DNA from: an uncultured Clostridia bacterium | GTDB lineage: Bacteria; Bacillota; Clostridia; Lachnospirales; Lachnospiraceae | DNA length: 54,375 nt | Assembly: GCA_947643415.1 (NCBI GenBank) | Contig: CANRWA010000023.1 | Location: 1 to 54,375 of the forward strand | Direction of reading: 5' to 3' | Part shown: positions 27 through 52,402 of the stretch, piece after piece | Layout of the letters: each line of letters opens with the position of its first letter | How positions within the stretch are numbered: position 1 is the first letter of the stretch | Notes under the pieces: model-generated | Told to the model about the DNA's origin: nothing | Databases searched by the model: none | The model's input: only the letters and a program-made list of their open reading frames with translations | Translations under genes and position numbers: made by a program

Positions 27-60
27 ACGGGTTCAAATTGGCGCCGTTGAGCTAACCCGT
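27..60 (-). repeat. Dispersed hairpin repeat, copy 1 (half-site)
   Basis: Contains the loop GGTTCAAATTGG followed by the arm CGCCGTTGAGCTAA, but the opposite arm of the full hairpin is missing. The copy is bounded instead by a short inverted repeat, ACGGGTT at 27-33 and AACCCGT at 54-60. It lies 18 bp downstream of the decayed transposase fragment. Five related copies occur elsewhere in the window, at about 14.15, 25.8, 28.06, 45.84 and 52.2 kb. Confidence 0.75.
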
Positions 61-77
61 GATACAAACTGTATGTA

Positions 78-389
78 TCATGATAATGCAGGGCATCTAG
101 TTACTATATCCTGATTATACCCCTCATTGATATTCAACTGCAAGACCTTTAATTCCAGTGCCGTATCTCCCTTTCCCTTCCATGAATAAGCATCAGACAG
201 ACACAGTATCCTTTTCTCAGGCTGTTCTTTCACTCCATTATATAAAACAACAAAACCAGGATTTGGCAACATGATCTGCCTTGATGAGTAAACATCCAGT
301 TCTGATGTCAGTTTCTGATATAAATCTGCTATATACATCAAATAACGCAACGGCATATTGGGATTAAATGCAGACTGGTGTTCCAACAA
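78..389 (-). pseudogene. Fragment of Rpn/PD-(D/E)XK nuclease family transposase
   Basis: The 103-residue translation matches the middle of the Rpn-type PD-(D/E)XK 'transposase' family that is abundant in Lachnospiraceae. It shows the family's N-terminal phrase NPNMPLRYLMYIADLY, the segment PNPGFVVLYNG, and the nuclease core ALELKVLQLNINEGYN, in which the E-x-K pair is visible. Family members are usually about 300 residues. The segment before NPNMPLR and everything after the core are missing, so this is a remnant rather than a working gene. It is next to hairpin repeat copy 1 and downstream of the pilus genes. I recognise the family by motif memory only; a profile search would confirm it. Confidence 0.7.
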
Positions 390-422
390 CGATAAATGAA
401 AATCCAGAATACATGATAAATC

Positions 423-462
423 AAGGGTCGTTTCACGCTTATTTCGGCGTATTACGACCCTT
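423..462 (-). terminator. Hairpin downstream of pilC, likely terminator
   Basis: AAGGGTCGT at 423-431 pairs with ACGACCCTT at 454-462, and an inner ACGC/GCGT stem extends the structure. It lies about 80 bp past the pilC stop. The plus side is followed by an AT-rich stretch ending in TTTTT, so it may work in both directions. The U-run on the minus side is poor. Confidence 0.5.
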
Positions 463-539
463 TAAATTCTCAATTATATTTTTACAGTACCAATGGTCTA
501 AGGTTATAACCACCTTTCCCATCAGCCGATTTTCCTTCT

Positions 540-1757
540 TTATACATTCCCGGCATTTTCATAGATAGAGAGCATCGGCATCATAACAGCCCCAAGTATC
601 CCACCCACAAGGACGGCAAGGAGGACGATGATCATTGGCTCCATAGCGGTTGTCAGGTTCTTCGTCGCCACAGACACCTCTTCCTCGTAGTACTCTGCCA
701 CCTTGTCTAACATCTGCTCTGTCGTACCGGTCTCCTCACCAATCCGCAGCATATGCGTCAACATCGGCGGAAACACCCCCGACGCCTCCAACGGTTCCGA
801 CATAGGAATTCCCTGCATGACCTCCTCTCTGCAGTCTTTGACAGCTTTCCGGATCACACGGTTACTGATGACATCCCCCGCAATCTCAAGGGCATCTACC
901 AGAGGCACCCCGGACATAACCAATGTCGCCATCGTCATAGAAAACCTGGCAGAAGCATTCTTCACAGAGAAATTTTTAAACATCGGAACGAGAAGAGCCA
1001 CCCGGCTGAGAAACTGTTTTCCCGGCTCGGTGCCTTTCCCCACTACAATAAAGATCACCAGACCTGCGATCGTACCCAGAACGCCCAGAATATGGCTTGT
1101 GACAAAATTACTTATATTAACGACCATCTGTGTCAGTACAGGCAGCTCCTCACCCATTGTCTCAAAGGTTTCTTTAAAGTTCGGGATAACCGTGGTCATA
1201 AGAATAATCACCACTGCAATCGCAACCACAAATACTACGATGGGATAGATCATGGCAGAACGTACCATAGATCCCAGTTTCATATCTTTGTCAAACTGGG
1301 ATGTAATTCTTTCAAAGGCAATCTCCAGATTACCTGTCGCCTCTCCGGCGCGCACCATATGGACCAGAAGTTCTGGGAAGATCTTTCCTTCCTGCTCCAT
1401 GGCACCGGCAAGAGATTCCCCCTTTGACACACCAGCCTGCACATTGAGCAGTGCTTTCTGCAGACTTTTGTTCTCTGTCTGTTCCTGAACCATCTGCAGG
1501 CCATCAATCACCGTCACACCTGCTGTCAGGATACTGTAAAACTGCTTGCAGAACACCGTAATATCCTTTTTCTTCACACCAGTGCCGATCTGGATATTCC
1601 AGCTTGCATCATTCAGGGAATGAGATTCCTTTATGTTCAGGACTACACTGCCATCCCCCTTTAATCTGGCAATGGCCTGTTCCTCTGACTGGGACTCCAT
1701 CAGCCCCTTCTTCTCCTTACCATATTTGTCAGTGATAACATATTTATATCTCGCCAT
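540..1757 (-). CDS. pilC: Type IV pilus inner-membrane platform protein (PilC/GspF family)
   Basis: PilC-family platform proteins sit in the cytoplasmic membrane and link the assembly and retraction ATPases to the growing pilus. The 405-residue product has the usual family length, with two T2SSF domains at about 70-195 and 270-395. Hydrophobic segments lie near 170-195, 218-240 and 373-395. Family phrases visible are VFCKQFYSILTAGVTVIDGL, SMVRSAMIYPIVV, and GEETGTTEQMLDKVAEYYEEEV near the C-terminus. It is the last of three genes in the order pilB-pilT-pilC, 47 bp after pilT, and is clearly cotranscribed with them. No pilin or prepilin peptidase follows inside the window. It could belong to a competence-type pseudopilus, but the neighbouring pilT favours a retractable pilus. 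Confidence 0.9.
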   Translation of the reverse strand: MARYKYVITDKYGKEKKGLMESQSEEQAIARLKGDGSVVLNIKESHSLNDASWNIQIGTGVKKKDITVFCKQFYSILTAGVTVIDGLQMVQEQTENKSLQKALLNVQAGVSKGESLAGAMEQEGKIFPELLVHMVRAGEATGNLEIAFERITSQFDKDMKLGSMVRSAMIYPIVVFVVAIAVVIILMTTVIPNFKETFETMGEELPVLTQMVVNISNFVTSHILGVLGTIAGLVIFIVVGKGTEPGKQFLSRVALLVPMFKNFSVKNASARFSMTMATLVMSGVPLVDALEIAGDVISNRVIRKAVKDCREEVMQGIPMSEPLEASGVFPPMLTHMLRIGEETGTTEQMLDKVAEYYEEEVSVATKNLTTAMEPMIIVLLAVLVGGILGAVMMPMLSIYENAGNV

Positions 1758-1804
1758 ACTTTACCTCCTCTTATCCTGGTCAAATACCCCACGGCAAACT
1801 CCAC

Positions 1805-2860
1805 TTAGTAGATCAGTCTCTTCTTAAGGTTTGACTTATCCTGTGCGAACAATATTGCATCTTCCCGTGTGATCTTCCTGTGTTCATATAATTCTGTCAA
1901 TGCATCATCCATAGTTATCATCCCTGCTGATTTGCTGGTCTGTATGATGGATGGGATCTGATGGGGTTTCGCCTCACGGATCAGATTTCGTATTGCGCTG
2001 TTGGCATACATGATCTCAAAGGCAGCGACACGCCCCTTTCTGTCCGCTGTTGGAAGAAGCTGCTGGGATATGATCGCCTCCAGCAGAGTTGCTAACTGGA
2101 TGCGGATCTGTCCCTGCTGGTTTGTCGGAAAAACATCGATGATACGTTCTATGGTAGGCACTGCACCTATCGTATGTAATGTCGAAAATACCAGATGCCC
2201 GGTCTCCGCTGCTGTCACCGCCGTGGCAATGGTGTCCAGATCACGCATCTCCCCCACAAGTATCACATCCGGGTCTTCACGGAGCGCTGCCCGCAATGCC
2301 CCCGCATAAGATTGTGTATCGATCCCTACTTCACGCTGGTTTACAACAGACTTAGCATGGCTGTGAAGATACTCGATTGGATCCTCCAATGTAATAATAT
2401 GCTTACTGTAGTTCTGATTGATCACATTGATCAGGGAAGCCAGTGTAGTTGACTTACCGCTTCCGGTAGGTCCTGTCACAAGGATCAGTCCCCTTTTCTT
2501 CGTGGCAAGTTCAATGACTGACGGAGACAGTCCCAATTTCTCAGGTTCGGGAATTTCCGAATTCACCACTCGAATAACAAATGCAAGAGAACCCCTCTGC
2601 TTAAATATATTGACACGAAAGCGCCCCAGTCCCCGGACTGCATAAGAGAAATCAATCTCTCCATCTAAATTAAAGCGTTCCACCAATCTGCCCGGAATCA
2701 TCTGCTCCACCAGTTCTTTCGTATCTTTTGGCATGAGCACATCCTGGGTCAGTGACCGCAGCTCGCCATTGATACGGACTTTCGGCGGAATTCCCACTGA
2801 CACATGGAGATCTGAAGCCCCAACCTGTCTTGCCGCCATTAAAAGATCATCAATTCTCAT
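1805..2860 (-). CDS. pilT: Type IV pilus retraction ATPase PilT
   Basis: PilT is a hexameric ATPase that depolymerises the pilus and drives twitching. The product has Walker A GPTGSGKSTT near residue 130, Walker B DPDVILVGEMRD, the His-rich phrase FSTLHT, and the PilT-specific C-terminal AIRNLIRE motif. These separate it from the assembly ATPase. I place the start at 2860 (MRIDDLL), where a GGGG sequence sits 6 nt upstream; the in-frame ATG at 2872 has no good ribosome binding site. The gene lies 31 bp after pilB and 47 bp before pilC. A true PilT points to retractable type IV pili, as known in several Clostridia. Confidence 0.93.
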   Translation of the reverse strand: MRIDDLLMAARQVGASDLHVSVGIPPKVRINGELRSLTQDVLMPKDTKELVEQMIPGRLVERFNLDGEIDFSYAVRGLGRFRVNIFKQRGSLAFVIRVVNSEIPEPEKLGLSPSVIELATKKRGLILVTGPTGSGKSTTLASLINVINQNYSKHIITLEDPIEYLHSHAKSVVNQREVGIDTQSYAGALRAALREDPDVILVGEMRDLDTIATAVTAAETGHLVFSTLHTIGAVPTIERIIDVFPTNQQGQIRIQLATLLEAIISQQLLPTADRKGRVAAFEIMYANSAIRNLIREAKPHQIPSIIQTSKSAGMITMDDALTELYEHRKITREDAILFAQDKSNLKKRLIY

Positions 2861-2891
2861 AATAAACCCCATTCCAACTTGATATAATAAG

Positions 2892-4589
2892 CTACTCTGC
2901 TGCGATCCGTTCTACCTCAGAGATCGAAGTTACCCCCTGCAATACCAGCTTGGCAGCACCGTGGCGCAATGTCGTCATACCCTCCTGAAGGGCAACTTTC
3001 TGAATCTCTTCTGCACCACCGCCGGCAGCTATGACACGGCGTATATTCCCACTGACAGGCATGATCTCATAGACACCAATCCTCCCGCGGTATCCGGTGC
3101 CATTACAGAAAGCACAGGTGCCGCCTCCCGGCTCATAGATCGTCGGTGATGCATCACCCCTTAGATGCAGTCTCCGCTTATCGTCGTCTGTAATCACATG
3201 TGCCCTCTTGCATTTCGGACAGAGACGGCGCACCAGACGCTGAGCTATGATCCCCACCGTAGAGTCAGCAATGAGATATGGCTCCACACCCATATCCTCC
3301 ATACGGGTAATAGAACTCGCCGCACTGTTTGTATGAAGTGTGCTGACTACAAGATGTCCGGTAATAGCTGCCTTGACAGCAATGCCTGCTGTCTCCTCAT
3401 CACGGATCTCACCGATCATAATGATATCCGGATCCTGCCGCAGGATAGAACGAAGCGCCGAGGCAAATGTCAGTCCTGCCTTTTCATTTACCTGAACCTG
3501 ATTGATGCCATCTACATCTGCCTCAACCGGATCCTCTACTGTTATGATATTGACATCCCCGGAATTCAGCTCACTGAGAACGGTATATAATGTCGTTGAC
3601 TTACCGCTTCCGGTAGGTCCTGTCACCAGAATGATCCCATGTGGGTTGCGCACGAGCTGGTCAAACCGCCGCAGTTCCTCCGGTGGGAAACCAAGATCCT
3701 TCTTATCTCTTGTCAGCGCCTGCTTGGAGGCAAGACGCATAACAATCTTTTCTCCAAACACAGTAGGGAGGCTGGATACACGAATATCGTATTCCACACG
3801 GTCATACCGCTGTGTCATACGGCCATCCTGTGGGGCACGTTTCTCAGAAATGTCCATGCCGCTGATGATCTTGACACGTGCCACGATGGCAGCAAGAAGC
3901 TCATGCTCATACTGCATCATCTCCTGCATGACACCATCAATGCGGAAACGCACACGCACACTGTTCTCCATTGCCTCGATATGAATATCACTGGCACGCT
4001 CATTTACTGCCTGCTCAATGATCTTATTTACCAATATTACGATAGGGGCATTGTCAACCTCTTCATTTTCTTCCTGATGCTTCCCTCTCGCTTCCTGCTG
4101 TTTCTTGCGTTCCTCCGAAAAAGCATCTGCCATCTTGGCAACCTGTTCATTTCCATAGTATCTCTCAATGCCAAAATGAATATCGGATGGTGTCGCCACC
4201 ATGGGCTCTATGATCATATTCGTAACGATGCCCAGGTCATCCACAGCAAGGATATCCAGCGGATCCGACATAGCCACTCTCAGAATATTCGGATTCTCCG
4301 GATGAATCTCAAAAGGCAGGACATTATGTTTGCGCACGATCTTTTCTGACAGAAGCCCAATCACCTCTGGTGTCAGTTTTGCTTCCCTGATGTGTGCAAT
4401 AGGCAGCCCCATCTGCTGATGAAGTGCCTCAACGATCTCACCTTCATTTGTAAAATTCAGCTCGATCAATGTCTGGCCCAGCCTCATCCCCATTTCCCGC
4501 TGTTTCTTCAGTGCCTCTCCGAGCTGTTCATCTGTGATAACGCCAGCATCTACCAGCATATCCCCTAGTCTTTTCTTTCTCCCCAACAT
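2892..4589 (-). CDS. pilB: Type IV pilus assembly ATPase PilB (GspE/MshE family)
   Basis: PilB powers pilus extension. The 565-residue protein has an N-terminal MshEN-type domain at about 5-150, which in homologues can bind c-di-GMP. A charged linker follows at about 155-180 (KKQQEARGKHQEENEE). The ATPase core has Walker A GPTGSGKSTTLYT at 324-336, Walker B DIIMIGEIRDEE near 390, and STLHTNSAASSI. A four-cysteine zinc site (CPKCK and CAFCNGTGYRGR) lies near 455-495. The order pilB-pilT-pilC is conserved in Firmicutes. Whether the MshEN domain here binds c-di-GMP is inference, but two GGDEF proteins are encoded in this window. Confidence 0.93.
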   Translation of the reverse strand: MLGRKKRLGDMLVDAGVITDEQLGEALKKQREMGMRLGQTLIELNFTNEGEIVEALHQQMGLPIAHIREAKLTPEVIGLLSEKIVRKHNVLPFEIHPENPNILRVAMSDPLDILAVDDLGIVTNMIIEPMVATPSDIHFGIERYYGNEQVAKMADAFSEERKKQQEARGKHQEENEEVDNAPIVILVNKIIEQAVNERASDIHIEAMENSVRVRFRIDGVMQEMMQYEHELLAAIVARVKIISGMDISEKRAPQDGRMTQRYDRVEYDIRVSSLPTVFGEKIVMRLASKQALTRDKKDLGFPPEELRRFDQLVRNPHGIILVTGPTGSGKSTTLYTVLSELNSGDVNIITVEDPVEADVDGINQVQVNEKAGLTFASALRSILRQDPDIIMIGEIRDEETAGIAVKAAITGHLVVSTLHTNSAASSITRMEDMGVEPYLIADSTVGIIAQRLVRRLCPKCKRAHVITDDDKRRLHLRGDASPTIYEPGGGTCAFCNGTGYRGRIGVYEIMPVSGNIRRVIAAGGGAEEIQKVALQEGMTTLRHGAAKLVLQGVTSISEVERIAAE

Positions 4590-4599
4590 ATGACATCAC

Positions 4600-4746: not shown

Positions 4747-4832
4747 GACAACACCCCCTTTCCTATATCTAATGATTAAACCTTTGTCTCCTGCCGGCAG
4801 ATCTCAGGAACCTGCCCCAGCCTGACAGTAAT

Positions 4833-6110: not shown

Positions 6111-6120
6111 TCAGGCGGCC

Positions 6121-6708: not shown

Positions 6709-6761
6709 GAAAAGTCCTCCCTTTCACTTTATGTCTCCCCAGCTTCTGTAAATCACCTTAT

Positions 6762-8125: not shown

Positions 8126-8129
8126 TCGA

Positions 8130-14129: not shown

Positions 14130-14151
14130 CTCAAATCCTCATCCTGTCCTG

Positions 14152-14189
14152 ACTCAACGGCGCCAATTTGAACCCGCCGTCGGGCTAAG
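14152..14189 (-). repeat. Dispersed hairpin repeat, copy 2
   Basis: ACTCAACGGCG, loop CCAATTTGAACC, and CGCCGTCGGGCTAAG form a stem of about 12 bp with one mismatch. It lies immediately upstream of the methyltransferase ribosome binding site, so it would be part of that gene's leader. See the six-copy finding. Confidence 0.8.
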
Positions 14190-15736: not shown

Positions 15737-15869
15737 AGAACGGCCGAAGGCCGTTCTCCAAAGTTTCCAGCAAAGCTGGAAACTTTTTTTCTTATAGAAA
15801 ATTCCGCCTTGTGCGAAGCAAGAATTGCCTATGGCAATTCTTGGAGCGTTGCGGTTTTCAGCCAACGCT
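15737..15869. repeat. Cluster of four hairpins in the oadB-oadA gap
   Basis: Four successive palindromes are visible. AGAACGGCC/GGCCGTTCT is at 15737-15757 and AAAGTTTCCAGC/GCTGGAAACTTT at 15760-15786. CAAGAATTGCC/GGCAATTCTTG is at 15819-15843, and AGCGTTG/CAACGCT at 15844-15869. The second and fourth are followed by runs of T only on the plus strand, against the direction of the operon. The segment from 15794 to 15837 is repeated in inverse orientation at 45790-45833. Confidence 0.75.
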
Positions 15870-15872
15870 TTT

Positions 15873-16991
15873 TTATACCCCAAAGATTGCCATAAACACA
15901 CCTGCCGCCACGGCAGTACCGATAACACCTGCCACATTCGGTCCCATAGCATGCATCAGCAGGAAGTTGGTCGGATCGGCTTCTGCTCCCACTTTCTGTG
16001 ATACACGGGCAGCCATAGGCACAGCCGACACACCTGCCGAGCCAATCAGCGGGTTCACCTTGCCTTTTGTTGCGATACACATCAGTTTGCCAAACAGAAC
16101 ACCTGCCGCCGTACCAACAGCAAATGCAACCAGTCCCAGCACAACGATCTTCAGTGTATCCACCTGAAGGAAATTTGCCCCACTAGTCTTTGCCCCTACC
16201 GAAGTACCCAGCAGGATAACTACGATGTACATCATGGCATTGGATGCTGTCTCTGAAAGCTGTTTTACCACGCCAGATTCCTTAAACAGGTTACCTAACA
16301 TCAGCATACCTACAAGCGGTGCTGTCGTCGGCAGGATCATACAAACCACAACAGTTACCACGATAGGGAATAGGATCCTCTCCAGTTTAGACACCGGACG
16401 GAGCTGCTCCATCTTGATCTCACGCTCCTTCTTTGATGTCAGAAGCTTCATAATAGGCGGCTGGATGATCGGCACCAGTGACATATAGGAATATGCTGCC
16501 ACTGCGATGGGTCCCATAAGATCTGTCTGGCCTAATTTACCAGCCAGGAAGATCGAGGTAGGGCCATCCGCACCACCAATAATCGAGATCGCTGCTGCCG
16601 CTTTGCCATTGAATCCCATAAAGATAGCAAGCAGATATGCCCCAAAAATACCGAACTGGGCCGCCGCACCTAAAAGAAAACTTTTCGGATTTGCGATCAG
16701 CGGGCCAAAGTCCGTCATTGCTCCTACCCCCATAAAGATCAGGGATGGCAGGATACTCCACTCATCCAGCAGGAAGAAGTAGGATAACAGTCCCCCCTCA
16801 TTCATAATATCTGGATAAATATTAACCAGCAGCATACCAAATGCGATCGGAACAAGCAAAAGCGGCTCATATCCCTTCTTGATCGCCAGATACAGAAATA
16901 CAAAGGCAACCAGGATCATCACATAGCTGCGCCAATCCAGTGTACCGTTGAAAAAGGCTGTCTGGTCAATAAGATTTTGTAATACTTCCAT
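15873..16991 (-). CDS. oadB: Sodium-translocating decarboxylase beta subunit
   Basis: The OadB/MmdB/GcdB family releases CO2 from carboxybiotin and exports Na+. The 372-residue protein is almost wholly membrane-embedded with about nine to eleven helices. Conserved sites are visible: [15 protein letters not shown] near 142 (the functional Asp of the first re-entrant loop) and the C-terminal repeat [20 protein letters not shown] near 316. The phrases [17 protein letters not shown] and [17 protein letters not shown] also fit. It follows the biotin carrier gene by 36 bp and would serve either carboxyltransferase of the operon. Confidence 0.96.
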
Positions 16992-19272: not shown

Positions 19273-22200
19273 CTATTTTCTAATCTTTATTTTTTTCTTC
19301 AATACCCATGGCGAATACAATTTTTTCGCTTTTCCGGCAGTTCTGACATTAACATATGCCCGTACCCTGACATAATAAATGCCTTTCAGTCTTTTCACTG
19401 TCAATTTGGCAGAAGAAGAACGGACCAGCTTCTTTTTCGTCTTCTTCGCAGCAAATTTCTTATTTGGCGAGTACTGGACCTCCACTCCAGATACTTTCGT
19501 ATTTTTCTTCCACTGTATGCTCAGTTGTCCTTTCTTTTTACTCTTGGCGCGAAGCTTCTTCACCTTTGCCGGCTTTACTGTCACTGTCACTGCGGCAGAT
19601 ACTGTCTGATAACCACTGCCCTCTGCCTTTATTGTGATGGTGGCATAATCCATGGCATTTTTTTTGATGGTCACAATACCTTTCCCATCCACGGTAACTT
19701 TACTGCTGTCTGACCGGTAAGATAGTATCCCTCCTGCCGCTGCCACATTCAAAGAAAAACTTCTTTTCTTTGCTGATACCGTATAGGTATAGGACTTCTT
19801 TGCCAACCTGATCTGGTTCGGCAGCAGGGCGCTGCTGTCTCCGGAAACACCATTTCCCCCTATACTCCCGCCATCACCTGTATTTCCACCATTTCCATTA
19901 TTCCCGCTGTCTCCGGTATTTCCACCATCTCCATTATTTCCGCCATCTCCGGTATTCCCGCCGTCTCCGGAACCAGTGGCAGGGATCGCAGTGGTGCTGC
20001 CTTCTTTCACTGTATCACATACACTGCAGTGAATGGACTTACTGCCTGCCACTGTATCAGTAGGTTCTTTATCTATTGTGTATTCATCCTCCCATGTATG
20101 TCCATTATTCACTGTAACTTTACAGATATTCTTATTCCCTTTTTTATCCACAGCCACGATTTCATGGCTGCTGCCATCCCCTGTAACCTGATAGAGGCCC
20201 TGGTCGCCGGAAACGGTTTTCCCATCAATAGACGCACTGTCCAGATTATCATCAAAAACAACAAAGAAAACTGTCCCGCAATATACTTTTGCATCCTGAA
20301 TGCCACTGATAACCGGAGATTTGGTATCCGCCTCGATCTTATATGTCTTTTCTCCATCCGCTTCCACAAATGCGCCCTTTCCATCATTTGGCCCCAGGTA
20401 GCCGGAAAGCGTGAAAGTCAGATTTTCCACACTGTTTTCTGTATAGCCGATATCTGCCAGATCCACCACATTCAGCAGCACACAGCCCCTGTCCACATCA
20501 CTGTCATCATCAAATGTGCCATATGCCACAAATCCCCTTTTGGCGCTGGAACCATCCTGTATCAGATCTGTCTGGACCCCATTGCCCCAGGCAATAGCAT
20601 TCGCATATTTCCCCTGATACACGTGGCTTCCAACAGAATATCTTTTCTCTCCCATGGTTATATATAACTCAGAACAGATACCATTGTACCATTCATATGG
20701 CACATTACCTGCCGTAATCCCGTCACTGTGAATCTTATCTACTGCCACCACAGTGAGAAAGTACATTTTAGTCCCAACAACCTTATAATACGCCTTTGTA
20801 TAATTATTGCCCTCCTTTGTGGCGACCGGAATATAACTGCTCTCCTCTGACAGGGCATCCATCTGATAACGGATCTCTTTTCCTGCCAGCCTGCTTTTGC
20901 CGGCATCAAAAAGTTCTATTGCAATCTCCCCTGGTATGGAATGAACACCACTTGGAGGATTCGCAATGACACGAACCACAATTTCTTTCCCGGAAACAGA
21001 GATATCTTGTATAACGAAACCGCCCTCCACATCTCCCTCTTTCACTGTTTTTCCATTGACAGTAACTGTCTCCTGCCCGGTAAACTTCTCCTTCGCCGTA
21101 AAGGTGACAGTAACCAGATTCACAGAGTCCAGGTATGCCTTTCCCTGTACCGTTGCCGTAACCTCTCCCACTTTCTCCTGAATGGGAAGTTCTTCCCCGT
21201 CTTTTGCACATGCCACTGTTACATCAGTCATATCATAAGCTGCCCGGATCTCGCCATTCTTCGCTGCCTTTAACATAGCTGCTGACAAATCAGCTACTGT
21301 GCTGCTCCCAATGGCTGTCTCCGCCCGATAGGTCAGCATCAGCGTACCATTCCGGTAGAAACCAATGCTTCCATCTACATTATAAGAAATGGTTACTTTC
21401 ATGGATTCTCCACTTGTAAAAACTGTCCATGCATTGGAAGAATTGTATCCTGCTGCCTTTGCCTCACTGCTCAGTACAGCCTCCGCCTCAAAGATATTCA
21501 CACCACCATAATTCAGAACAGAGAGAAATACACTTTCACGGTTGTCTGTCTCAAAAATCCCTGTCCAGTCACTGGTTATGCCCGATACGGTAAAATTTAA
21601 TGATACACCGGTCTTATCACTAAGGCATTCTGCCTTTGCGATCTTTTCTCCTTTGGACAATTTACTGTAAGATAATGCTGTCTTTCTGTCTGTTCCCTCC
21701 TTTCCGCAGACTTTTACCGGATAACTCTTCTGGTAATAGCTGTTTCCTTTTGAAACTGTCCTTGTCAGTGTCACAACCGTATCTTTCTCTGGCTGGTACA
21801 CCCTGCCATCCAGACCGATCACATCCTCATTGGAGGACGTCCACTGAATATCTGCACCCCATAATGCCTCTGTGTCCATCGCCACGGAACTGTATACCGT
21901 CGATGGCACACTGTATCCTGCACTATATGCCACCACTGCGTCCTCGGCAGGTGTCCTGGAACCCCATATACACTCTCCCGTCTCCTGGCATACTGCCGTA
22001 AAACACATTGTCCTTATATTGGTACTGTCAATCTTCTGCTGAACAAAAACGCCCTTATATGTCTTTGCTCCCAGAACGATAGTGGCATATGCTGTTCCCT
22101 GTTTCTCCTCCCATTTGCCGGAATAAGCGCCTGTGATGCTGCCATCTTCCTTCAACTGGATCCCCACAGGCTTTACAATATCAACATTCTCTGCCACATT

Positions 22201-23742
22201 TCCGTCATCCTTCGCCTTTGGATTATTATACTGGTGCACGATCAGGTCATAATCGCCAACAAGATCCGCCCTGTCAACAGGCGTGGATGCAATGGTCTTA
22301 TCATTTATTTTCTCTCCGGCATACTCATATGGCGCCGCCACGATCCATCCGTCCTCATTCTGATAGAGCTGATGCACACGAAGTTCGTGAAAAGCCGTGT
22401 CATTGGCAAACTTGGTATGATAGATCACATAATTGTTGCCATCCTTGTCTGTATAGGCGGAATTATGGCCCTGGGCGATCTCCGCCACATCCATAGTGTT
22501 CCACTGATAATTATTCATCAACTGCAGTCCTCTGCTGGTTGCCCTGAAATTGTCCTGCCTACTGCTGTATAGTGCACTCTTCCCACTGCTGTCCACATAT
22601 GGTCCCTCTGGTTTTTCTGAACGGAACACTCTCATATTATAACCGCCTGTGGGTGAATAGAAGCCATAGGACAAAAACAGATAGTAGTAGTTCCCGATCT
22701 TCTCGATATAAGATCCCTCTCCGGATACATAACATCCCCCGGCTATCTTCTTTCCAAAATAAGGGTCTGTCACTCCCGCCTGTTTCTTCGAATCATAATC
22801 ACTGTCATATTTTATGGAATAGTCTCGAAGCCCTGTCCTTTTATCCAGCTCCAGCATAAAAATGCCGCCAGACCAAGAACCATAACTCATCCAGAGATTT
22901 TCCTCATCATCATAAAATACACAGGGATCGATATCACTAACCCAGTAATCCCCCCAGTTTACTTCTGTATAACGTTTTGGGAGAGTGCCGTTTGGCTCCA
23001 GCGCCCCATCCACCAGATCCATATCGGTATCCCCAAAGTAACCATGCTGCCCCCTGGCATTGTTAAAACCGCCAAATACAATGGGTGCCTGGTATACATA
23101 TGGCCCCTCAATATCATCTGCTGTAAGAAGTACGATAACAGCATGGGCATTATCCGTTACACTGTAATACATACACCACTTCTCCATCTCTTTGTTGTAG
23201 ATCACATCCGGCGCCCAGGTCTTGCCCCGCAGAGTGGAAGCGCCAAGCCATGAGTTAATATCATATGTACTAAAATTAACAGAATATGCCTTTCCGTCCT
23301 TCCCATAAAGTGTCTGGCTTCCTGTCAATTCATTTTGCCGCAGCGCCTCATCATAACCTGCTGTCACCACAGATCCGCCTGAATTCTTTCCGAACAGCTT
23401 GTTTTTGTCCTCACCATTGACACTGGTATCTCTCCAGTTCATCAGGTCTGTAGTCTTCGCCACGCCCATCATGGTTCCAAACACATAATATTCTGTCTTC
23501 CCATCCTTTCCATCCTTTGTGACAATGGATGGGTCATGCACTGCCTGTCTGGAATAGCTTTTCTTCTGATACAGGGTATGCACCTGTTCGTCTGTCAACT
23601 GTGTTTTTGATGCTGCCTCCGCCCTGGCACCAGCTGTGCCCTGCCGGCCGGATAAAACAGAAACCGGCATCATCATAGCCATCACCAACATACCGGCAAC
23701 GATCCGTCTCCCAATTTTTCCCATACTATTTCTTCTCACCAT
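19273..23742 (-). CDS. Large secreted GH43 glycoside hydrolase with Ig/FN3-like tail
   Basis: A 1489-residue extracellular protein. A signal peptide lies at about 1-43 (basic start, MLVMAMMMPVSVLSG, AEA site). The GH43 five-bladed propeller spans about 55-480, with catalytic base in AVHDPSIV, the pKa-setting Asp in SDIDPCVFYD, and the acid Glu in SGEGSYIEK. This pattern fits endo-arabinanases and related enzymes. Next come an Ig-like domain (about 635-705), a lectin-like region, and several beta domains. A HTWEDEYTIDKEPTDT/HCSVCDT module, common in Lachnospiraceae surface proteins, lies near 1255. A Gly/Asn/Asp linker built from NTGDGG-type repeats follows near 1300, then a BIG2-like and a basic FN3-like C-terminus. 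No LPXTG is seen; attachment may be ionic. The start has AAAGGAGGG upstream. Confidence 0.9.
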   Translation of the reverse strand: MVRRNSMGKIGRRIVAGMLVMAMMMPVSVLSGRQGTAGARAEAASKTQLTDEQVHTLYQKKSYSRQAVHDPSIVTKDGKDGKTEYYVFGTMMGVAKTTDLMNWRDTSVNGEDKNKLFGKNSGGSVVTAGYDEALRQNELTGSQTLYGKDGKAYSVNFSTYDINSWLGASTLRGKTWAPDVIYNKEMEKWCMYYSVTDNAHAVIVLLTADDIEGPYVYQAPIVFGGFNNARGQHGYFGDTDMDLVDGALEPNGTLPKRYTEVNWGDYWVSDIDPCVFYDDEENLWMSYGSWSGGIFMLELDKRTGLRDYSIKYDSDYDSKKQAGVTDPYFGKKIAGGCYVSGEGSYIEKIGNYYYLFLSYGFYSPTGGYNMRVFRSEKPEGPYVDSSGKSALYSSRQDNFRATSRGLQLMNNYQWNTMDVAEIAQGHNSAYTDKDGNNYVIYHTKFANDTAFHELRVHQLYQNEDGWIVAAPYEYAGEKINDKTIASTPVDRADLVGDYDLIVHQYNNPKAKDDGNVAENVDIVKPVGIQLKEDGSITGAYSGKWEEKQGTAYATIVLGAKTYKGVFVQQKIDSTNIRTMCFTAVCQETGECIWGSRTPAEDAVVAYSAGYSVPSTVYSSVAMDTEALWGADIQWTSSNEDVIGLDGRVYQPEKDTVVTLTRTVSKGNSYYQKSYPVKVCGKEGTDRKTALSYSKLSKGEKIAKAECLSDKTGVSLNFTVSGITSDWTGIFETDNRESVFLSVLNYGGVNIFEAEAVLSSEAKAAGYNSSNAWTVFTSGESMKVTISYNVDGSIGFYRNGTLMLTYRAETAIGSSTVADLSAAMLKAAKNGEIRAAYDMTDVTVACAKDGEELPIQEKVGEVTATVQGKAYLDSVNLVTVTFTAKEKFTGQETVTVNGKTVKEGDVEGGFVIQDISVSGKEIVVRVIANPPSGVHSIPGEIAIELFDAGKSRLAGKEIRYQMDALSEESSYIPVATKEGNNYTKAYYKVVGTKMYFLTVVAVDKIHSDGITAGNVPYEWYNGICSELYITMGEKRYSVGSHVYQGKYANAIAWGNGVQTDLIQDGSSAKRGFVAYGTFDDDSDVDRGCVLLNVVDLADIGYTENSVENLTFTLSGYLGPNDGKGAFVEADGEKTYKIEADTKSPVISGIQDAKVYCGTVFFVVFDDNLDSASIDGKTVSGDQGLYQVTGDGSSHEIVAVDKKGNKNICKVTVNNGHTWEDEYTIDKEPTDTVAGSKSIHCSVCDTVKEGSTTAIPATGSGDGGNTGDGGNNGDGGNTGDSGNNGNGGNTGDGGSIGGNGVSGDSSALLPNQIRLAKKSYTYTVSAKKRSFSLNVAAAGGILSYRSDSSKVTVDGKGIVTIKKNAMDYATITIKAEGSGYQTVSAAVTVTVKPAKVKKLRAKSKKKGQLSIQWKKNTKVSGVEVQYSPNKKFAAKKTKKKLVRSSSAKLTVKRLKGIYYVRVRAYVNVRTAGKAKKLYSPWVLKKKIKIRK

Positions 23743-23783
23743 AAGCCTTCCCTCCTTTCGTAAAATCTATGATATTATTTTTC

Positions 23784-23812
23784 ATTATACCGTCCTTCAG
23801 GCCTGATTGCAA
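23784..23812 (-). promoter_or_regulatory. Promoter of the large GH43 gene
   Basis: On the minus strand, TTGCAA (23807-23812), 17-bp spacer, TATAAT (23784-23789). It lies just outside the left end of the fold-back element. Confidence 0.75.
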
Positions 23813-23827
23813 TATCTGTGCAAAAAA

Positions 23828-24408
23828 GGGAAAAGTATTACTTTCGGCTATTGAATCATTGGGGGAGGCATGGCAGCGGATCTTGTGCTGTCTGTTGCCC
23901 TTATACTGCATCCCGAAAAATATTGTTTCCTTCGTCTGCATATACACTGCCTGAGCATTGTCTGAGATGTCTGCCGCCGTTCCCTGTCTTTTTGCAGCAC
24001 GTTTGCACTAGGAGCCGCCACGCAGCGGTGCTAATGCACCACCGATACAAGGTCTGTTAATACTGCGGGCAGATGCAGGGCATCTGTCCATGGAGGAGAT
24101 GCCAAAAAATAAATATATTTATTTTTGGCACACTCCTTCCATGGATCAGCACCTTTGGTGCTGCCCGCAGAAATAAGAAACAAAAGGTGGTGCATAAGGA
24201 CCGGCGGGCGGCTATGCTGCAAAAAGACAGGGAACGGCGGCAGACAGCAAGTTTTGCGAAAGGCAGCGTAATGCTTTTGCAGACGAAGGAAACAAGTGAT
24301 TTTTCGTTGGATGTGGTATTACCGGGCAACAGACAGCACAAAAACCGCTTGCCGTCCCCTCCCAATGATTCAATAGCCTGCCAGGGAAGGAAAAGTAATA
24401 CTTTTCTC
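23828..24408. repeat. 580-bp fold-back (long inverted repeat) element
   Basis: The two halves are inverted copies around a centre in ATAAATATATTTAT near 24115. The outer ends are GGGAAAAGTATTACTTT on the left and AAAGTAATACTTTTCTCC on the right. Matching blocks on opposite strands include CTATTGAATCATTGGG, GTGCTGTCTGTTGCCC, GTTTCCTTCGTCTGCA, GCCGCCGTTCCCTGTC and TATGCACCACC-type sequence. The halves differ by substitutions and small indels. The open frames inside run on both strands and mirror each other, so I do not treat them as genes. The element fills the whole gap between the promoters of the GH43 gene and the carboxypeptidase gene. Confidence 0.85.
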
Positions 24409-24419
24409 CTATCTTCATA

Positions 24420-25805: not shown

Positions 25806-25840
25806 TTAGCTCAACGGCGCCATCGAACCGGCACCCTGAT
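25806..25840 (+). repeat. Dispersed hairpin repeat, copy 4 (degenerate)
   Basis: TTAGCTCAACGGCGCC is a perfect left arm. The loop has drifted to ATCGAACC, and the right arm is eroded. It lies in the leader region ahead of the glutamine synthetase gene. Confidence 0.7.
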
Positions 25841-25892
25841 CTATCGTGCAGAATAATATGTATGCCGTTTGTCCGGCAGAATGGAGGAAATT

Positions 25893-28004
25893 ATGCAAAA
25901 AAATGTAATTGAAGATGTGTTTGGCACCAAAGTATTCAACGATGCCGTCATGCAGGAATACCTTCCTAAGAAAACGTATGCCGCTCTGAAAAGTACCATT
26001 GAAAATGGAAATGAGCTGGCTCCGGAAGTTGCCAATGTCGTTGCCCACGCAATGAAAGAATGGGCCCTGAATAATGGGGCAACCCATTATACACACTGGT
26101 TTCAGCCTTTAACCGGTGTCACTGCCGAGAAACACGACTCATTTCTGAGTGCAGATTCGGATTCACACGCCGTTCTTGAGTTCTCCGGCAAGGAACTGAT
26201 CAAGGGTGAACCAGATGCCTCCTCATTCCCATCTGGCGGTCTGCGCGCCACCTTTGAAGCAAGAGGATATACTGCCTGGGATTGTACCTCACCAGCCTTT
26301 CTGCGGGAAGATGCCATCGGAACGGTTCTCTGCATCCCCACCGCATTCTGCTCCTACACAGGCGAAGCACTGGACAAGAAAACCCCTCTTTTACGTTCCA
26401 TGGAAGCCATCAGTAAACAAGCTGTCCGGATTCTGAGACTGTTCGGAGATGAAGAAGTCAGCAATGTCAGATGTTCCGTCGGTCCGGAACAGGAATATTT
26501 CCTGATCGACCGTGACCAGTACTTACAGCGTGATGACCTGATCTTCACAGGCAGGACCCTGTTTGGTTCTATGCCTCCGAAAGGCCAGGAACTGGATGAC
26601 CATTACTTCGGAACGATCCGTGAACGGCAGGCATCTTTCATGAAGGAACTGAATATCGAGCTATGGAAACTTGGTATCTTGTCCAAGACCCAGCACAATG
26701 AGGTTGCTCCTGCACAGCATGAAATGGCTCCGATCTATGAAACGGCAAATATCGCAACCGACCACAATCAGTTAGTTATGGAGACAATGAAAAAGGTAGC
26801 ACGCCGCCACCATCTGGAATGCCTGCTTCATGAAAAGCCTTTTGCCGGCGTCAACGGCTCAGGTAAGCATGACAACTGGTCCCTTGTCACCAATACAGGC
26901 AAGAACCTGCTGAGTCCGGGATCTGCCCCATACGATAACAAACAGTTCCTGCTATTCCTCGCTGCTGTTATCGCCGCTGTGGATGACCATGCTGCCCTGC
27001 TGCGTCTCTCAGCTTCTACTCCGGGTAATGACCACCGTCTTGGCGCCAACGAAGCACCGCCTGCCATCATCTCCATCTTCCTCGGTGAGCAGTTGGAGGA
27101 CATCGTAGAACAGATCCTTGCCACCGGTACTGCCACTCACAGCAACAAAGGCGGCAAAATGGATATTGGCGTACACACAATCCCGCCGATCAAAAAAGAC
27201 GCCACAGACCGGAACAGGACATCACCTTTTGCTTTCACTGGTAATAAATTTGAGTTCCGTATGGTGGCATCCTCAAATTCCATTGCCAGCGCCAATACTG
27301 TTCTGAATGCATCCGTAGCGGATGTCCTTCAGGATATGGCAGATAAGCTGGAGAAAGCGGAAGACTTTGATACCGCAGTAGACGAACTGATCTGCGAGAC
27401 ATTGAAAACACATCAGAGGGTTATCTTCAATGGAAATGGTTACTCCGATGAGTGGATCGAAGAGGCAGAAAAAAGAGGACTGCCCAATGTCAAAACAATG
27501 GTAGATGCGACAACCTCCCTGCTGGAGGAAAAAACAATTGCCATGTATGAAAGACAGCATGTATACAGCCGCACAGAACTGGAATCCCGCACAGAGATCA
27601 ACTATGAGATATACGCAAAGGCGATCAATATCGAAGCAAAGACAATGGTAAAGATGGCATCCAAACAGTATATCCCGGCAGTGATCGGTTATGTAACAAA
27701 TCTTGCAGAATCCATTAACAGTATTACATCCGCCTGTGCCGCCGCTGATGTGTCAGTGCAGACTGAACTGCTGACCAAGTGCTCTGATCTTCTCGCTGAT
27801 GCCCGCAAGGCAGTAGTAACACTGAAGGAAGTCAATGATAAGGCAAATGATATGGAGGATGGCAAAGAACGTGCTGAATTCTACCGTGATGTGGTTATGA
27901 AAGCCATGACAGACCTCCGTACCCCCATCGATACACTGGAAGATATCGTGGATAAGAGTTTCTGGCCTGTACCAGCATATGGTGATATGTTGTTTGAGGT
28001 TTAG
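25893..28004 (+). CDS. glnN: Glutamine synthetase type III
   Basis: GSIII makes glutamine from glutamate, ammonia and ATP. It forms large double-ring dodecamers and is common in Bacteroidetes and Clostridia. The product is about 703 residues, the typical GSIII length and far longer than GSI. Visible motifs are HWFQPLTG, the Glu ligands in [12 protein letters not shown] near 205, [13 protein letters not shown] near 270, [13 protein letters not shown] near 325, and [20 protein letters not shown] near 445. The start at 25893 is chosen because TGGAGG lies 5 nt before the ATG; the longer frame lacks a site. The next gene downstream on the same strand is a MocR regulator. Confidence 0.96.
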
Positions 28005-28021
28005 AAATTCAGAATAAAAAA

Positions 28022-28063
28022 CTAAGTCATGCCCCATAGCTTGCTGTGGGGTATTTGACTTAG
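28022..28063. terminator. Two-part hairpin downstream of glnN
   Basis: CTAAGTCA at 28022-28029 pairs with TGACTTAG at 28056-28063. An inner GCCCCATA/TGTGGGGT stem sits between them. On the plus strand no U-run follows; on the minus strand the hairpin is followed by TTTTTTATTC. The 3' arm shares TTAG with hairpin repeat copy 3. It may be a terminator or another repeat family. Confidence 0.5.
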
Positions 28064-28098
28064 CTCAATGGCGGGTTCAAATCGGCGCCGTTGGGCTA
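28060..28098 (+). repeat. Dispersed hairpin repeat, copy 3 (complete)
   Basis: TTAGCTCAATGGCG, then GGTTCAAATCGG, then CGCCGTTGGGCTA: both arms are present and pair over about 13 bp with G-T pairs. The loop is in the opposite sense to copies 2 and 5. Read on the plus strand the arm and loop look like tRNA D-arm and T-arm sequences. Confidence 0.8.
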
Positions 28099-45733: not shown

Positions 45734-45789
45734 AATCAGTAAAAAACAAACAACAATGAAAAGTTTTTTTCATTCAATCAAAACTTTCT

Positions 45790-45833
45790 GCCTATGGCAA
45801 TTCTTGCTCCGCATAAGACGGACTTTCCTATAG
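45790..45833 (-). repeat. Second copy of the oadB-oadA gap repeat
   Basis: On the minus strand this reads TATAGGAAAGTCCGTCTTAT, then GCGGAGCAAGAATTGCCATA. It aligns with 15794-15837 (TATAGAAAATTCCGCCTTGT, then GCGAAGCAAGAATTGCCTAT) with only a few mismatches. The gap from 45679 to 45988 is thus a repeat-rich island. Confidence 0.7.
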
Positions 45834-45840
45834 ATTAAAA

Positions 45841-45891
45841 TTAGCTCAACGGCACCAATTTGAACCCGTTCAAATTGACACCGTTGAGCTA
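45841..45891. repeat. Dispersed hairpin repeat, copy 5 (head-to-head dimer)
   Basis: TTAGCTCAACGG-CAC-CAATTTGAAC is followed by CC and then GTTCAAATTG-ACA-CCGTTGAGCTA. The loop sequence itself is duplicated in inverse orientation, giving a near-perfect palindrome of about 50 bp with a 2-nt centre. It is the longest and best-preserved copy in the window. Confidence 0.85.
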
Positions 45892-45925
45892 GTCAAAACG
45901 TTGCCTTTCATATCCTAACCAGAAC

Positions 45926-45949
45926 AGCGGTTTTGTACTGTCTGTTGCC
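45926..45949. repeat. Short piece related to the fold-back arm
   Basis: AGCGGTTTTGTACTGTCTGT followed by TGCC matches the fold-back arm sequence AGCGGTTTTTGTGCTGTCTG/TTGCC with one gap and one mismatch. It may be a remnant of another fold-back element. Confidence 0.45.
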
Positions 45950-45988
45950 TTGGCTGGGGTATGAAAAGTAACATCAAAATTCCCTGCA

Positions 45989-48438: not shown

Positions 48439-48457
48439 GAATCCTCATTTTCTGTTA

Positions 48458-49435: not shown

Positions 49436-49452
49436 ATTTCCTTCCCTCCAAA

Positions 49453-51555
49453 TTATTTTATTTTTACTTTCACAGTCTTATAGCTGCTATATTTCTTCAC
49501 TCCGTTTACCGTTGAATAAGCCCGGATATGGAAATAATAGGTCTTCCCCTTTTTCCATGTCTTCACAGAACGGGAGTAGGACGCCGTTTTCTTAGAAATC
49601 TTCACTGTCCCCAATTTCTTATGCTGTTTCTTCTTCCTGCCATAAGAGATCTCATACCTCTGTCCTTTTGCTTTCTTCCAGGTAAGCTTTACCTTTATCT
49701 TCTTTTTCTTTCCTGTCACCGTTACCTTTAATTTCTTCACCTTTGCCGGCTTTACTACGATGGTAATGGGAACCATGGTTGTTTTCTGGATACTGCCCTC
49801 TCTGTATGTAACCGACATCTGATAGCTGCCTGGCTTTTTCTTTGTAAAAGAAGACGCATTTGTTGTAAAATCCGTGGTTTTCTTTGTGACACCATTGGCA
49901 TAAAACAGGATAAGGGTAATATTCCCCTTTGCCAGTTTTTTCCCCTGCAGCACCTGTTTTTTCTTTACAGTGGCAGCAATGGAACGAAGCGAAGTATCCT
50001 CCTTATCCAGGCTGGTATAAAAAGTAGCAGCCTCTTTATCTGCCCCATTCCGCAAGGCCAGTGTACCATTGACGATGGTGAGATAATATCCCGGATGGGC
50101 AACACTCTCAAAAGATACCCCTTTGCTGCCTGCCAGCCCCTGGACGGTACGAAACGTCTGGCGTTTTGCCGTGTCAGCAGAGGCATCAATATCCTGTGCC
50201 AGGGTAACACTGGACGTAGAGTTCACTGTCAAATATAATCCCGGTTTATTTTCCGACTGAATCGACACATAAGCTCCTTTTTTCCTATCCGCCTTCCCTT
50301 CCATAATCAGCCATTTAGAATCCGCTGCCTCTTTACCGATCCCTGCACCCACTTTTACATCTTTATATGGATAATTCCTCTCATTGCTGGAATTCACATA
50401 GTATTCATGGGACAAAAGTGAACCAGAATTCGTATAAATAGAAGAAGTCGTCCCGGTGAGTCCACTGGCAGTCTCCGAAATCTCCTGGATACTTCCATCC
50501 TCATTAAAGTGCAGTTCCGTGATACAGGGAATCCGGCGGTATCCATTTCCCCCTGGCTGCGAACCATTGTGATAGGCAAAGTAAGTCTTACCCTTAAAGT
50601 CAAACACCGCCATATGGTTTGTATTGGAAGTAGCATTAGGCGGCATCAGGATCTTGCCATATTTCCAGTTTCCATTGATGAGATCACTGGTCGTAGAATA
50701 AGCCATTCTCTCGTGCCAGCCAGAAGCATAGAATAAATAGTAATCACCATAATATTTTCCATCCGCATCCTTACGGCGGTAGATCCATGGCGCTTCTGTG
50801 TATCCAGACGGAGAACGGTTTATGATATCTGCTGTCTTGCTGTCCTTCCCACAGGTTATCTTTCCATCACCATTTAAGTCCTTTACAGATATCATATCCT
50901 CATTCAGCTCACAGACATAATACTGGCTGTTGCCCCATGCCAGATAACGGTGTTCCACCCCTTTCCCATCCGTTTCGATCCACACAGTTGGGTCAATATC
51001 ATCCCAGTTACTGTTCTGTGGCATAGTCAGGGTGCCTTTTATCAGCGGGGCACCAATATCTTTAAATGGCCCCGTCGGGCTGTCTGCCACTGCCACCCCG
51101 ATGGACTGCTTTCCCTCCGACGTTTTATCCCAAGTACAGAAATACAGATAATATTTATCCTTATATTTCACTGCCTGGGCTGCCCAGCCGGAAGAAGAAT
51201 CCCTTGCCCATTTCACCTCATCCGTACTTACTTTCATAACACTGCCTTCTGGTCTCCATGTCTTCATATCATCTGTGGAATAGCAGATGTACTCCTTCTG
51301 ATTATATATCTTCCGGCTCACCTCACTGTCGCTGGACTCATCATGGCCGGCATAAAGATATACCCTGTCCCCATCCACAAGAACTGATGGATCTGCCCCA
51401 TATACAATCTTGCCGCTGGCATCTGTCGTAAAGACTGGATTCCCCGCTACATCCTTGGGCAGGACGATCTCCGTTACAGCACCTGCTGCCCTCGCCGGAA
51501 GGACAGGAAGAACAAAGCTGAGGGACAATACCCCTGCCAAAAATCTTTTCATCAT
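49453..51555 (-). CDS. Secreted GH43 glycosidase with arabinose-binding-like and Ig/FN3-like domains
   Basis: A 700-residue extracellular enzyme. A signal peptide lies at about 1-23 (FLAGVLSLSFVLPVLPARA). The GH43 propeller spans about 40-370 with Asp in YGADPSVLVD, Asp in DDIDPTVWIE near 185, and Glu in SGYTEAPWIYRR near 245. An inserted loop DLNGDGKITCG near 222 looks like a calcium-binding dockerin or EF-hand loop. An AbfB-like region lies at about 415-520 (GAYVSIQSENKPGLYL, GVSFESVAHPGYYL). A bacterial Ig-like domain and a very basic FN3-like C-terminus follow, as in the 1489-residue GH43. Its promoter is of MerR type. Confidence 0.9.
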   Translation of the reverse strand: MMKRFLAGVLSLSFVLPVLPARAAGAVTEIVLPKDVAGNPVFTTDASGKIVYGADPSVLVDGDRVYLYAGHDESSDSEVSRKIYNQKEYICYSTDDMKTWRPEGSVMKVSTDEVKWARDSSSGWAAQAVKYKDKYYLYFCTWDKTSEGKQSIGVAVADSPTGPFKDIGAPLIKGTLTMPQNSNWDDIDPTVWIETDGKGVEHRYLAWGNSQYYVCELNEDMISVKDLNGDGKITCGKDSKTADIINRSPSGYTEAPWIYRRKDADGKYYGDYYLFYASGWHERMAYSTTSDLINGNWKYGKILMPPNATSNTNHMAVFDFKGKTYFAYHNGSQPGGNGYRRIPCITELHFNEDGSIQEISETASGLTGTTSSIYTNSGSLLSHEYYVNSSNERNYPYKDVKVGAGIGKEAADSKWLIMEGKADRKKGAYVSIQSENKPGLYLTVNSTSSVTLAQDIDASADTAKRQTFRTVQGLAGSKGVSFESVAHPGYYLTIVNGTLALRNGADKEAATFYTSLDKEDTSLRSIAATVKKKQVLQGKKLAKGNITLILFYANGVTKKTTDFTTNASSFTKKKPGSYQMSVTYREGSIQKTTMVPITIVVKPAKVKKLKVTVTGKKKKIKVKLTWKKAKGQRYEISYGRKKKQHKKLGTVKISKKTASYSRSVKTWKKGKTYYFHIRAYSTVNGVKKYSSYKTVKVKIK

Positions 51556-51589
51556 AACAAACCTCCTTAAACCTATTTTCTATTTACAA

Positions 51590-51620
51590 AGCATAACACT
51601 TCAAGTATACTTGAAGTCAA
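51590..51620 (-). promoter_or_regulatory. MerR-type promoter with 19-bp spacer and palindromic operator
   Basis: On the minus strand, TTGACT (51615-51620), a 19-bp spacer and TATGCT (51590-51595). The spacer is filled by the perfect palindrome ACTTCAAGTATACTTGAAGT (51598-51617). An over-long spacer bearing a dyad is the hallmark of promoters that MerR-family activators untwist. It drives the GH43 gene. Confidence 0.88.
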
Positions 51621-51638
51621 GAGTTTTTTTGGTATAAA
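51611..51638 (+). promoter_or_regulatory. Probable merR promoter
   Basis: TTGAAG (51611-51616), 16-bp spacer, TATAAA (51633-51638). The -35 overlaps the operator palindrome, so merR would be autoregulated. Confidence 0.5.
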
Positions 51639-51662
51639 AAACTTGCAGAAAGGACTGATTTT

Positions 51663-52067
51663 ATGAAAACATACTCGATCAGGGAAATGCGGGAGAAGTT
51701 TGATATTCCCTCATCTACCCTGCGCTATTATGAAGAAATCGGTCTGTTTCCTGAAGTAAAACGTACGGAAACAAACCAGCGCATCTACACAGAAGAACAT
51801 GTCGAACGCATTCATGCCATTAACTGTTTTAAACGGACAGGACTTCCTATGGCAAAGATACATGACTTTTTTGAGTACTCCACAGATATCTCCTCCCATA
51901 TCGACGATATTATATTTATGATGGAAGATCATGAAAAAAACATGATAGAACAGATAGAAAAAATGCAGGAAGACTTAAAACATATCCAACAGAAAGTCCG
52001 CTACTATAACCAGATTAAAACAGCAATGGACCAGGGAACTCCCTGGCCCTGCTTTGAGGAGTGTTAA
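51663..52067 (+). CDS. MerR-family transcriptional regulator (AdhR/NmlR-like)
   Basis: A 134-residue MerR regulator. The HTH lies at about 3-70 (YSIREMREKFDIPSSTLRYY, EEIGLFPEVKRTETNQRIYT), then a dimerisation coiled coil at about 80-120. The C-terminal PWPCFEEC and an internal Cys (AINCFKRTG) are the only cysteines; C-terminal cysteines could sense thiol-reactive aldehydes, as in AdhR/NmlR relatives. This fits the aldo/keto reductase in the divergent operon. It is transcribed away from the GH43 gene across the shared operator. Confidence 0.92.
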   Translation: MKTYSIREMREKFDIPSSTLRYYEEIGLFPEVKRTETNQRIYTEEHVERIHAINCFKRTGLPMAKIHDFFEYSTDISSHIDDIIFMMEDHEKNMIEQIEKMQEDLKHIQQKVRYYNQIKTAMDQGTPWPCFEEC

Positions 52068-52108
52068 ACAGTTCCTTAGTTCTCACAGTTCCTTAATATC
52101 AAAGGATG

Positions 52109-52402
52109 TTAACCCTGCGCCGCAGCTAATGAAATCACCATGCGGACAAAAACAACCAATCCAAACAGACACAGAATCACTCCAAATATCCGGTTCATCG
52201 CTTGAAATTGGCGCCATTGAGCTACAAGCCAAAGTCCCTGCAAAAAATTTGTTTTCCCAGATACACCAAAATAGGAAAAAGCAACCATACTGATCTCCCA
52301 TAAATGTAGTAGTCTGCAAAGAATAAACCAAGCAAAAATGATGAACTTTAAAAGGCATTCCTTTATCCGCCCGTAATAAATACGCAGAATTTTGCTTTGC
52401 AT
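52109..52402 (-). pseudogene. Possible membrane transporter relic interrupted by hairpin repeat
   Basis: The minus-strand frame ends with a convincing membrane segment, MNRIFGVILCLFGLVVFVRM, which resembles the last helix of LysE/RhtB-type exporters. Upstream the frame contains KTNFLQGL. The residues in between (WLVAQWRQFQA) are encoded by the hairpin repeat at 52201-52225. There is no proper start or upstream helices, so the gene is not functional. The family call is tentative. The rest of the 449-bp gap to marR shows only the marR promoter. Confidence 0.35.
52200..52229. repeat. Dispersed hairpin repeat, copy 6 (half-site)
   Basis: Loop and right arm only (TTGAAATTGGCGCCATTGAG, then CTA), bounded by GCTTG and CAAGC as a short flanking inverted repeat, like copy 1. 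It sits inside the frame of a transporter relic. Confidence 0.7.

Follow-up and report, generated by a model that had tools for sequence, protein, structure and literature searches.

Six short, palindrome-like repeats lie scattered over a 54,375-nucleotide stretch of DNA (hereafter the window), which is contig C23 of genome G000 (4,608,215 bases in 230 contigs). What kind of element do they represent, and is the hairpin itself the unit that has spread? The first-pass annotation described six copies with a common arm and loop and proposed a mobile palindromic family of the REP/RAYT type or resembling miniature inverted-repeat transposable elements (MITEs). The common arm is borne out: TTAGCTCAACGGCG matches the window nine times at three or fewer mismatches, against 2.43 (sd 1.43) in 100 shuffles, none of which reaches nine. 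The loop alone carries no such signal (8 matches against 6.65, a count reached by 36 shuffles). The annotation also called for a genome-wide search, and here the suspicion of a large dispersed family is confirmed: the 21-mer TCAACGGCGCCAATTTGAACC, which joins arm and loop, has 134 matches in G000 at up to three mismatches, and its reversed control has none.

The real unit of this family is not the hairpin but a 269-bp element lying between TA dinucleotides. Four pairs of facing matches 244 bp apart in G000 pointed to the intact form, of which the genome holds at least five full-length copies with pairwise identities of 97.4-100%. The element begins with GCTCAACGGCGCCAATTTGAACCCG and ends in its complement, giving terminal inverted repeats of 23-25 bp with ends of the GCTCAACGGCGCCAATTTGAACC type. 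The inner edges of the two repeats are unlike, since end A runs on as CCGTGGACGG and end B as TTTCTATAACTG. A unit of 269 bp is too short for a transposase gene. MITEs span 50-500 bp according to PMC10969869; the full element, short and bounded by inverted repeats, lies inside this range and the 31- and 34-bp forms described below fall beneath it.

Once the full element is known, the copies in the window read differently (Table 1).

Table 1. Members of the family in the window, with their positions, strands and structures.
Copy	Position	Strand	Structure
1	1..54	-	Last 52 bases (B end) of a 269-bp element, followed by TA at 53-54; the elements in C82 and C128 have the identical B end
2	14150..14187	+	34-bp hairpin at 14152-14185; TG on the left, TA on the right
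3	25806..25831	+	Single eroded terminal repeat, no second arm
4	28061..28098	-	34-bp hairpin at 28063-28096; TA on each side; directly downstream of the glutamine synthetase III gene
5	45842..45891	+	Head-to-head pair of terminal repeats, 46 bp (45844-45889); TA on both sides
6	52200..52224	-	Degenerate single terminal repeat with TA; inside ORF 52083-52358

Copy 1 had been taken for a half-site that had gained new flanking repeats. Its 52-base identity to elements elsewhere in the genome indicates that contig C23 starts inside a 269-bp element, whose remainder lies beyond the contig start; draft assemblies can evidently break in these repeats. Copy 6, interpreted in the same way, is a degenerate lone end within an ORF that has no Pfam match, and precedes a stretch similar to contig C5 of G037. 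The labels of copies 3 and 4 have to be exchanged, in that the supposedly complete copy 3 retains just one arm and the supposedly eroded copy 4 is complete. Copies 2 and 5 are indeed a complete hairpin and a dimer. The first-pass observation is thus confirmed in part, its classification of copies being in need of correction: the series from complete hairpin through dimer and half-site to eroded form, attributed to a hairpin unit acquiring new flanks, comes from one kind of 269-bp element through internal deletions and decay. Copy 2, flanked by genes for a methyltransferase and a PYC/HMGL-like carboxylase, recurs at the corresponding position in G021 and G037, so that some hairpins are older than these species. 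Copy 3 lies between the genes for a D-Ala-D-Ala carboxypeptidase and glutamine synthetase III; none of the seven aligned relatives has it, and its surroundings are poorly conserved. Copies 3 and 4 bracket the glutamine synthetase III gene (window 25806-28098), and a short copy of another subfamily occupies the corresponding place downstream of this gene in G012.

Other repeats share this neighbourhood. A second dispersed hairpin family, found at 15784-15877 and at 45789-45840, where it adjoins copy 5, has the core CAAGAATTGCC ATAG GGCAATTCTTG, with some copies beside CTGCGGTTCTCAGTCAGCCC, and is present in many copies in G000 and G037. At 23819-24417 lies an element of about 600 bp in which inverted repeats are nested, their arms measuring 55, 32, 27 and 26 nt; it seems to be the long version of a third family of repeats, short pieces of which occur at 45899-45970 and elsewhere. 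A stretch of about 5.1 kb with a GH43 glycosidase gene (window 19280-24389) is missing from G037 and G021 between conserved flanks. Outside the window, a 47-bp sequence next to the C172 hairpin (L031 2921-2967) recurs at 91-100% identity in at least nine other places of G000 and represents another dispersed family. About 700 bp of G000 that include one hairpin (L247, G000:C28:13450-14250) are 97% identical to a locus of G003 (L204, contig C69), far above the identity elsewhere, reflecting either a recent transfer or a binning error.

How do the hairpins relate to the full element? Loci were fetched for most of about 100 matches listed out of the 134 in G000, so the following counts are not a full census. 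Among the matches listed, 81 G000 elements have two ends: 37 measure 34 bp, 13 measure 31 bp, 15 measure 46-48 bp, five are 269 bp long and the others are scattered in size, so that 31- and 34-bp forms make up 50 of the 81. A stricter first pass gave 37 elements of 34 bp and seven of 31 bp; three of the 13 31-bp elements continue along end A with no junction and were probably cut too short. Of the 113 terminal-repeat sites of the first pass, 21 have no recognisable second end. The typical 34-bp form, GCTCAACGGCGCCAATTTGAACCCGCCGTTGAGC, keeps one terminal repeat in full and, of its partner, the outer arm. Judged by their sequences, the short forms are internal deletions that join the two ends of the full element. 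When the 34-bp junction is read from end A, the overlap is at least 6 bp in 31 of 37 elements, a value that 0.26% of the possible junctions reach; from end B, the consensus splits equally well with an overlap of 2 bp. The 31-bp form shows an overlap of 5 bp from end B and 3 bp from end A. As both forms can be split from either end, a microhomology of 5-6 bp is the better of two readings rather than a proof. Relatives also carry 31- and 34-bp forms, and other inner edges go with other short lengths, namely 38 bp in G027, G036 and G015 and 47 bp in G011, the latter distinct from the head-to-head 47-bp form of G000. Among the sites compared, we found no orthologous position with a full form in one genome and a hairpin in another.

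The flanks point to TA as the insertion target. We restricted the count to elements with an exact right arm and a left repeat of up to two mismatches, wider counts over 81 elements having used a score that favours a TA on the right. In G000, TA stands on the left of 29 of 38 elements, on the right of 32 and on both sides of 25, against a background TA frequency of 0.059; in relatives the corresponding figures are 43, 37 and 36 of 45. We then compared eight elements of G021 and G037 (91% identical over 13.7 kb) with each other and with G000. A clean empty allele with a single TA was seen at four of these sites, those of the 268- and 269-bp copies of G037 and of the 82- and 34-bp copies of G021; the filled alleles are bounded by TA/TA, CA/TA, CA/TA and TA/TG. 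The site of the 82-bp copy is empty in G000 too, and the 34-bp copy is missing from G037. No clean empty site was found at the other four: one 34-bp copy is common to G021 and G037 with an apparent decayed trace in G000, one G037 copy corresponds to a partial remnant in G021, the difference at one G021 site goes beyond the element itself, and for one G021 copy just one flank was found. Two hallmarks of bacterial TA-target MITEs, a duplicated TA target and insertion polymorphism between relatives, are both seen here. The empty sites in relatives that the first-pass annotation had proposed to look for do exist and, with the high copy number and the TA ends, they sustain its suggestion of a mobile, MITE-like palindromic element.

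The copies avoid genes. Of 47 G000 elements in loci of at least 1.4 kb, six lie inside ORFs of at least 150 aa, compared with 78.5% of random positions. At C172, a copy sits at the position of the stop codon of the relatives' acetyltransferase gene, and the reading frame is lengthened.

The family is largely confined to one genus of Lachnospiraceae, probably from the mouse gut, to judge by the MGBC contig names. At up to two mismatches, 12 of 39 genomes of the genus carry it, G000 included, a search that undercounts carriers, as G012 has a short copy of the GCATAAC type. Across 299 genomes of the bacterial family, the same search yields two carriers, G000 and G203; G203, which lies outside the genus, gives one hit, an end whose inner stretch is similar but for which we could find no partner end. 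Among the matches listed, most named records are bins carrying the labels Roseburia, Lachnoclostridium, Clostridia bacterium, Eubacterium or Eubacteriaceae. Off-genus hits in Eudoraea (three), a Thermoguttaceae and an Oscillospiraceae bin, also among the matches listed, were judged from their flanks to be chance matches, and these five loci were removed before element sizes were counted. Phage and plasmid collections gave no match in the search modes used. The string GGCGCCAATTTGAACC was not found in the collection of literature texts searched; nor did we recognise such a family among publications naming both miniature inverted-repeat transposable elements and Lachnospiraceae, as far as their listing shows. 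We conclude that this is a genus-restricted MITE family, new in itself and of a kind already known, with an unusual end product.

Which transposase could move such an element? IS630-type transposases are the usual users of TA targets. No autonomous element with the terminal repeats of the family was found, whether among facing ends in carrier genomes or around IS630-type genes. Four pairs of facing ends lie 0.9-2.7 kb apart, with a content that appeared by eye to be host-like genes, and an apparent 2.2-kb element in G037 turned out to be two separate remnants. G000 has two IS630-type genes (PF13358), neither with family ends. One belongs to an IS630-type element on C81 directly beside a 31-bp hairpin (L053 1547-2857), its transposase reading as two ORFs; this element was rejected as a partner, for it has its own ends (TGTACTGTACCGTTCATATTTAG) and merely adjoins the hairpin. 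The other, on C7, has no family-like end within 3.5 kb at up to eight mismatches. Of eight other carrier genomes searched, three have a PF13358 match and five have none, and G036, with many full copies, has no such match.

For the full element, a Y-shaped fold with a terminal stem and two long arms is predicted, which takes up nearly the whole sequence (z of -14.3 as DNA and -15.9 as RNA). Twenty-seven elements of 262-275 bp fall into two types (14 and 13 elements) that have ends and length in common and different interiors; one element of each type folds better than controls with shuffled interiors (z of -6.6 and -7.0). We aligned eight of the 27, six rows of type I and two of type II. The Y pairs 95.7% of cells in this alignment against 85.8% in shuffles, and changes on both sides of a pair occur in 30 of 91 pairs against 12.4 in shuffles and 2-6 when the alignment is slid; many of them are differences between type II and type I rows, so that they represent few independent events. 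The motifs GAAATC and GACC flank the fork in all eight rows. Among known RNAs, a search of the window gave neither a tRNA nor an Rfam family at gathering score, and none of the Rfam families matches the full element of G000 up to E 1. In a type II element of G011, four matches to miRNA precursor families stayed below threshold (best 34.7 bits, E 2.5e-05, against a gathering score of 74) and were set aside as hairpin look-alikes.

We consider it about 85% probable that the six sites belong to a genus-restricted MITE family with a 269-bp unit, presumably moved by a DDE transposase acting in trans and reduced to 31- and 34-bp hairpins by slippage or gap repair. A TA-specific DDE transposase supplied in trans would move the element through its terminal repeats. 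The ends may then be joined when replication slips across the folded element, or when gap repair following excision is aborted: at short direct repeats, the inner edge of one repeat would be connected with the outer arm of its partner, which yields hairpins of 31 and 34 bp. These look like decaying remains, and no selected host function need be assumed for them.

Alternatively, within the same family, the hairpins may themselves be mobile, a single deletion in each lineage having been amplified by a transposase that requires just one full repeat and about 10 bp of the other. We give this somewhat less than even odds. Seven identical 34-bp copies lie at different places in G000, six between TA/TA and one between CA/TA, and the single-TA empty site of the G021 34-bp copy, as well as the preponderance of the two short sizes in G000, would be expected of a spreading hairpin. 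The left repeats of the short forms are also nearly as intact as those of full copies, with 1.1 (34 bp) and 0.85 (31 bp) mean mismatches of 23 positions against 0.6. Yet the short form retains about 11 bp of one terminal repeat, and several deletion sizes occur together in one genome. Furthermore, the same repeat variant, as judged from repeat bases 3-6, appears in short and full forms of G000, G036, CAOKVX and CANBKJ and for the most part of G027, although not of G022 or G011.

Repeats of the REP/REPIN kind, moved by a RAYT transposase, are a most improbable explanation. Their likeness to the family lies solely in the look of the short forms, which are extragenic palindromes of 20-40 bp occurring singly and as head-to-head doublets, like the REPs described in PMC3733652 and PMC3116915. 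Here, however, there is no fixed GTAG tag, this motif standing at the left edge of just 6 of 81 G000 elements (among the matches listed) and 15 of 119 others; TA marks both ends, and the hairpins are the joined ends of a longer element with true terminal inverted repeats, whose filled sites show two TA-like dinucleotides where empty ones show one TA. The main text of PMC3733652 does not contain 'clostridi', 'firmicutes' or 'lachnospiraceae'. The first-pass interpretation is supported in its MITE-like half and not in its REP/RAYT half. A host function at the RNA level, with the hairpins or the Y kept as terminator, mRNA stabiliser or regulator, is improbable too. The Y fold with its many compensatory changes between the two full-length types speaks for it, and so does the set of 48 distinct 34-mers, where 11 cells are compensated and shuffles give 3.7. 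But per site the arms of the 34-mers vary no less than the loop (0.083 and 0.108 changes against 0.056), which does not support selection on the hairpin; copies come and go between species; and symmetric arms would also result from palindrome correction or from the descent of both arms from the repeats of a single element. We also considered integron attC sites, which have RYYYAAC and GTTRRRY ends, and rejected them: the GCTCAAC subfamily fits these ends, the GCTCGAC and GCACGAC subfamilies do not.

As a MITE, the family appears to work like RUP, Correia/NEMIS and ERIC, a likeness drawn from the descriptions in PMC2229807 and PMC10969869. RUP of Streptococcus pneumoniae (107 bp, 108 copies, with IS630-Spn1 proposed as mover) is likewise non-autonomous and intergenic, with a TA target and terminal inverted repeats (PMC2229807). 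RUP has a candidate IS with similar ends whereas none was found here, and the available text mentions no collapsed class comparable to our 31- and 34-bp forms. Correia/NEMIS of Neisseria, according to the same text, shares TA ends, a terminal repeat of 24 bp, two size classes of which the smaller is shortened internally, and base-paired transcripts; it differs in its host and in its sizes of about 155 and 107 bp, against 269 down to 31 bp here. ERIC (RU-1) of enterobacteria, again as described there, has TA ends, target duplication and a base-paired transcript, but its terminal repeat is 7 bp long against 23-25 bp.

For this genus of Lachnospiraceae, the family offers a marker with filled and empty sites. 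We may also speculate, tentatively and thinking it rather unlikely as a whole, that REP-like hairpins can form with no RAYT, as the fixed-size product of a Y-folded transposon collapsing at built-in microhomologies, that this product is perhaps mobile, and that the covarying Y is the form recognised or processed during movement. If this were true, a mobile product of 31 or 34 bp, made of one whole repeat and about 10 bp of the other, would rank with the smallest mobile DNA units known. As this family shows, what lies between the ends of a bacterial MITE is not necessarily transposase debris and can preserve a fold. The family further suggests a second origin for short palindromic repeats in bacterial genomes, from collapsed MITEs besides RAYT-driven REPs, the former being told apart by their TA ends and by the junctions of a longer element.
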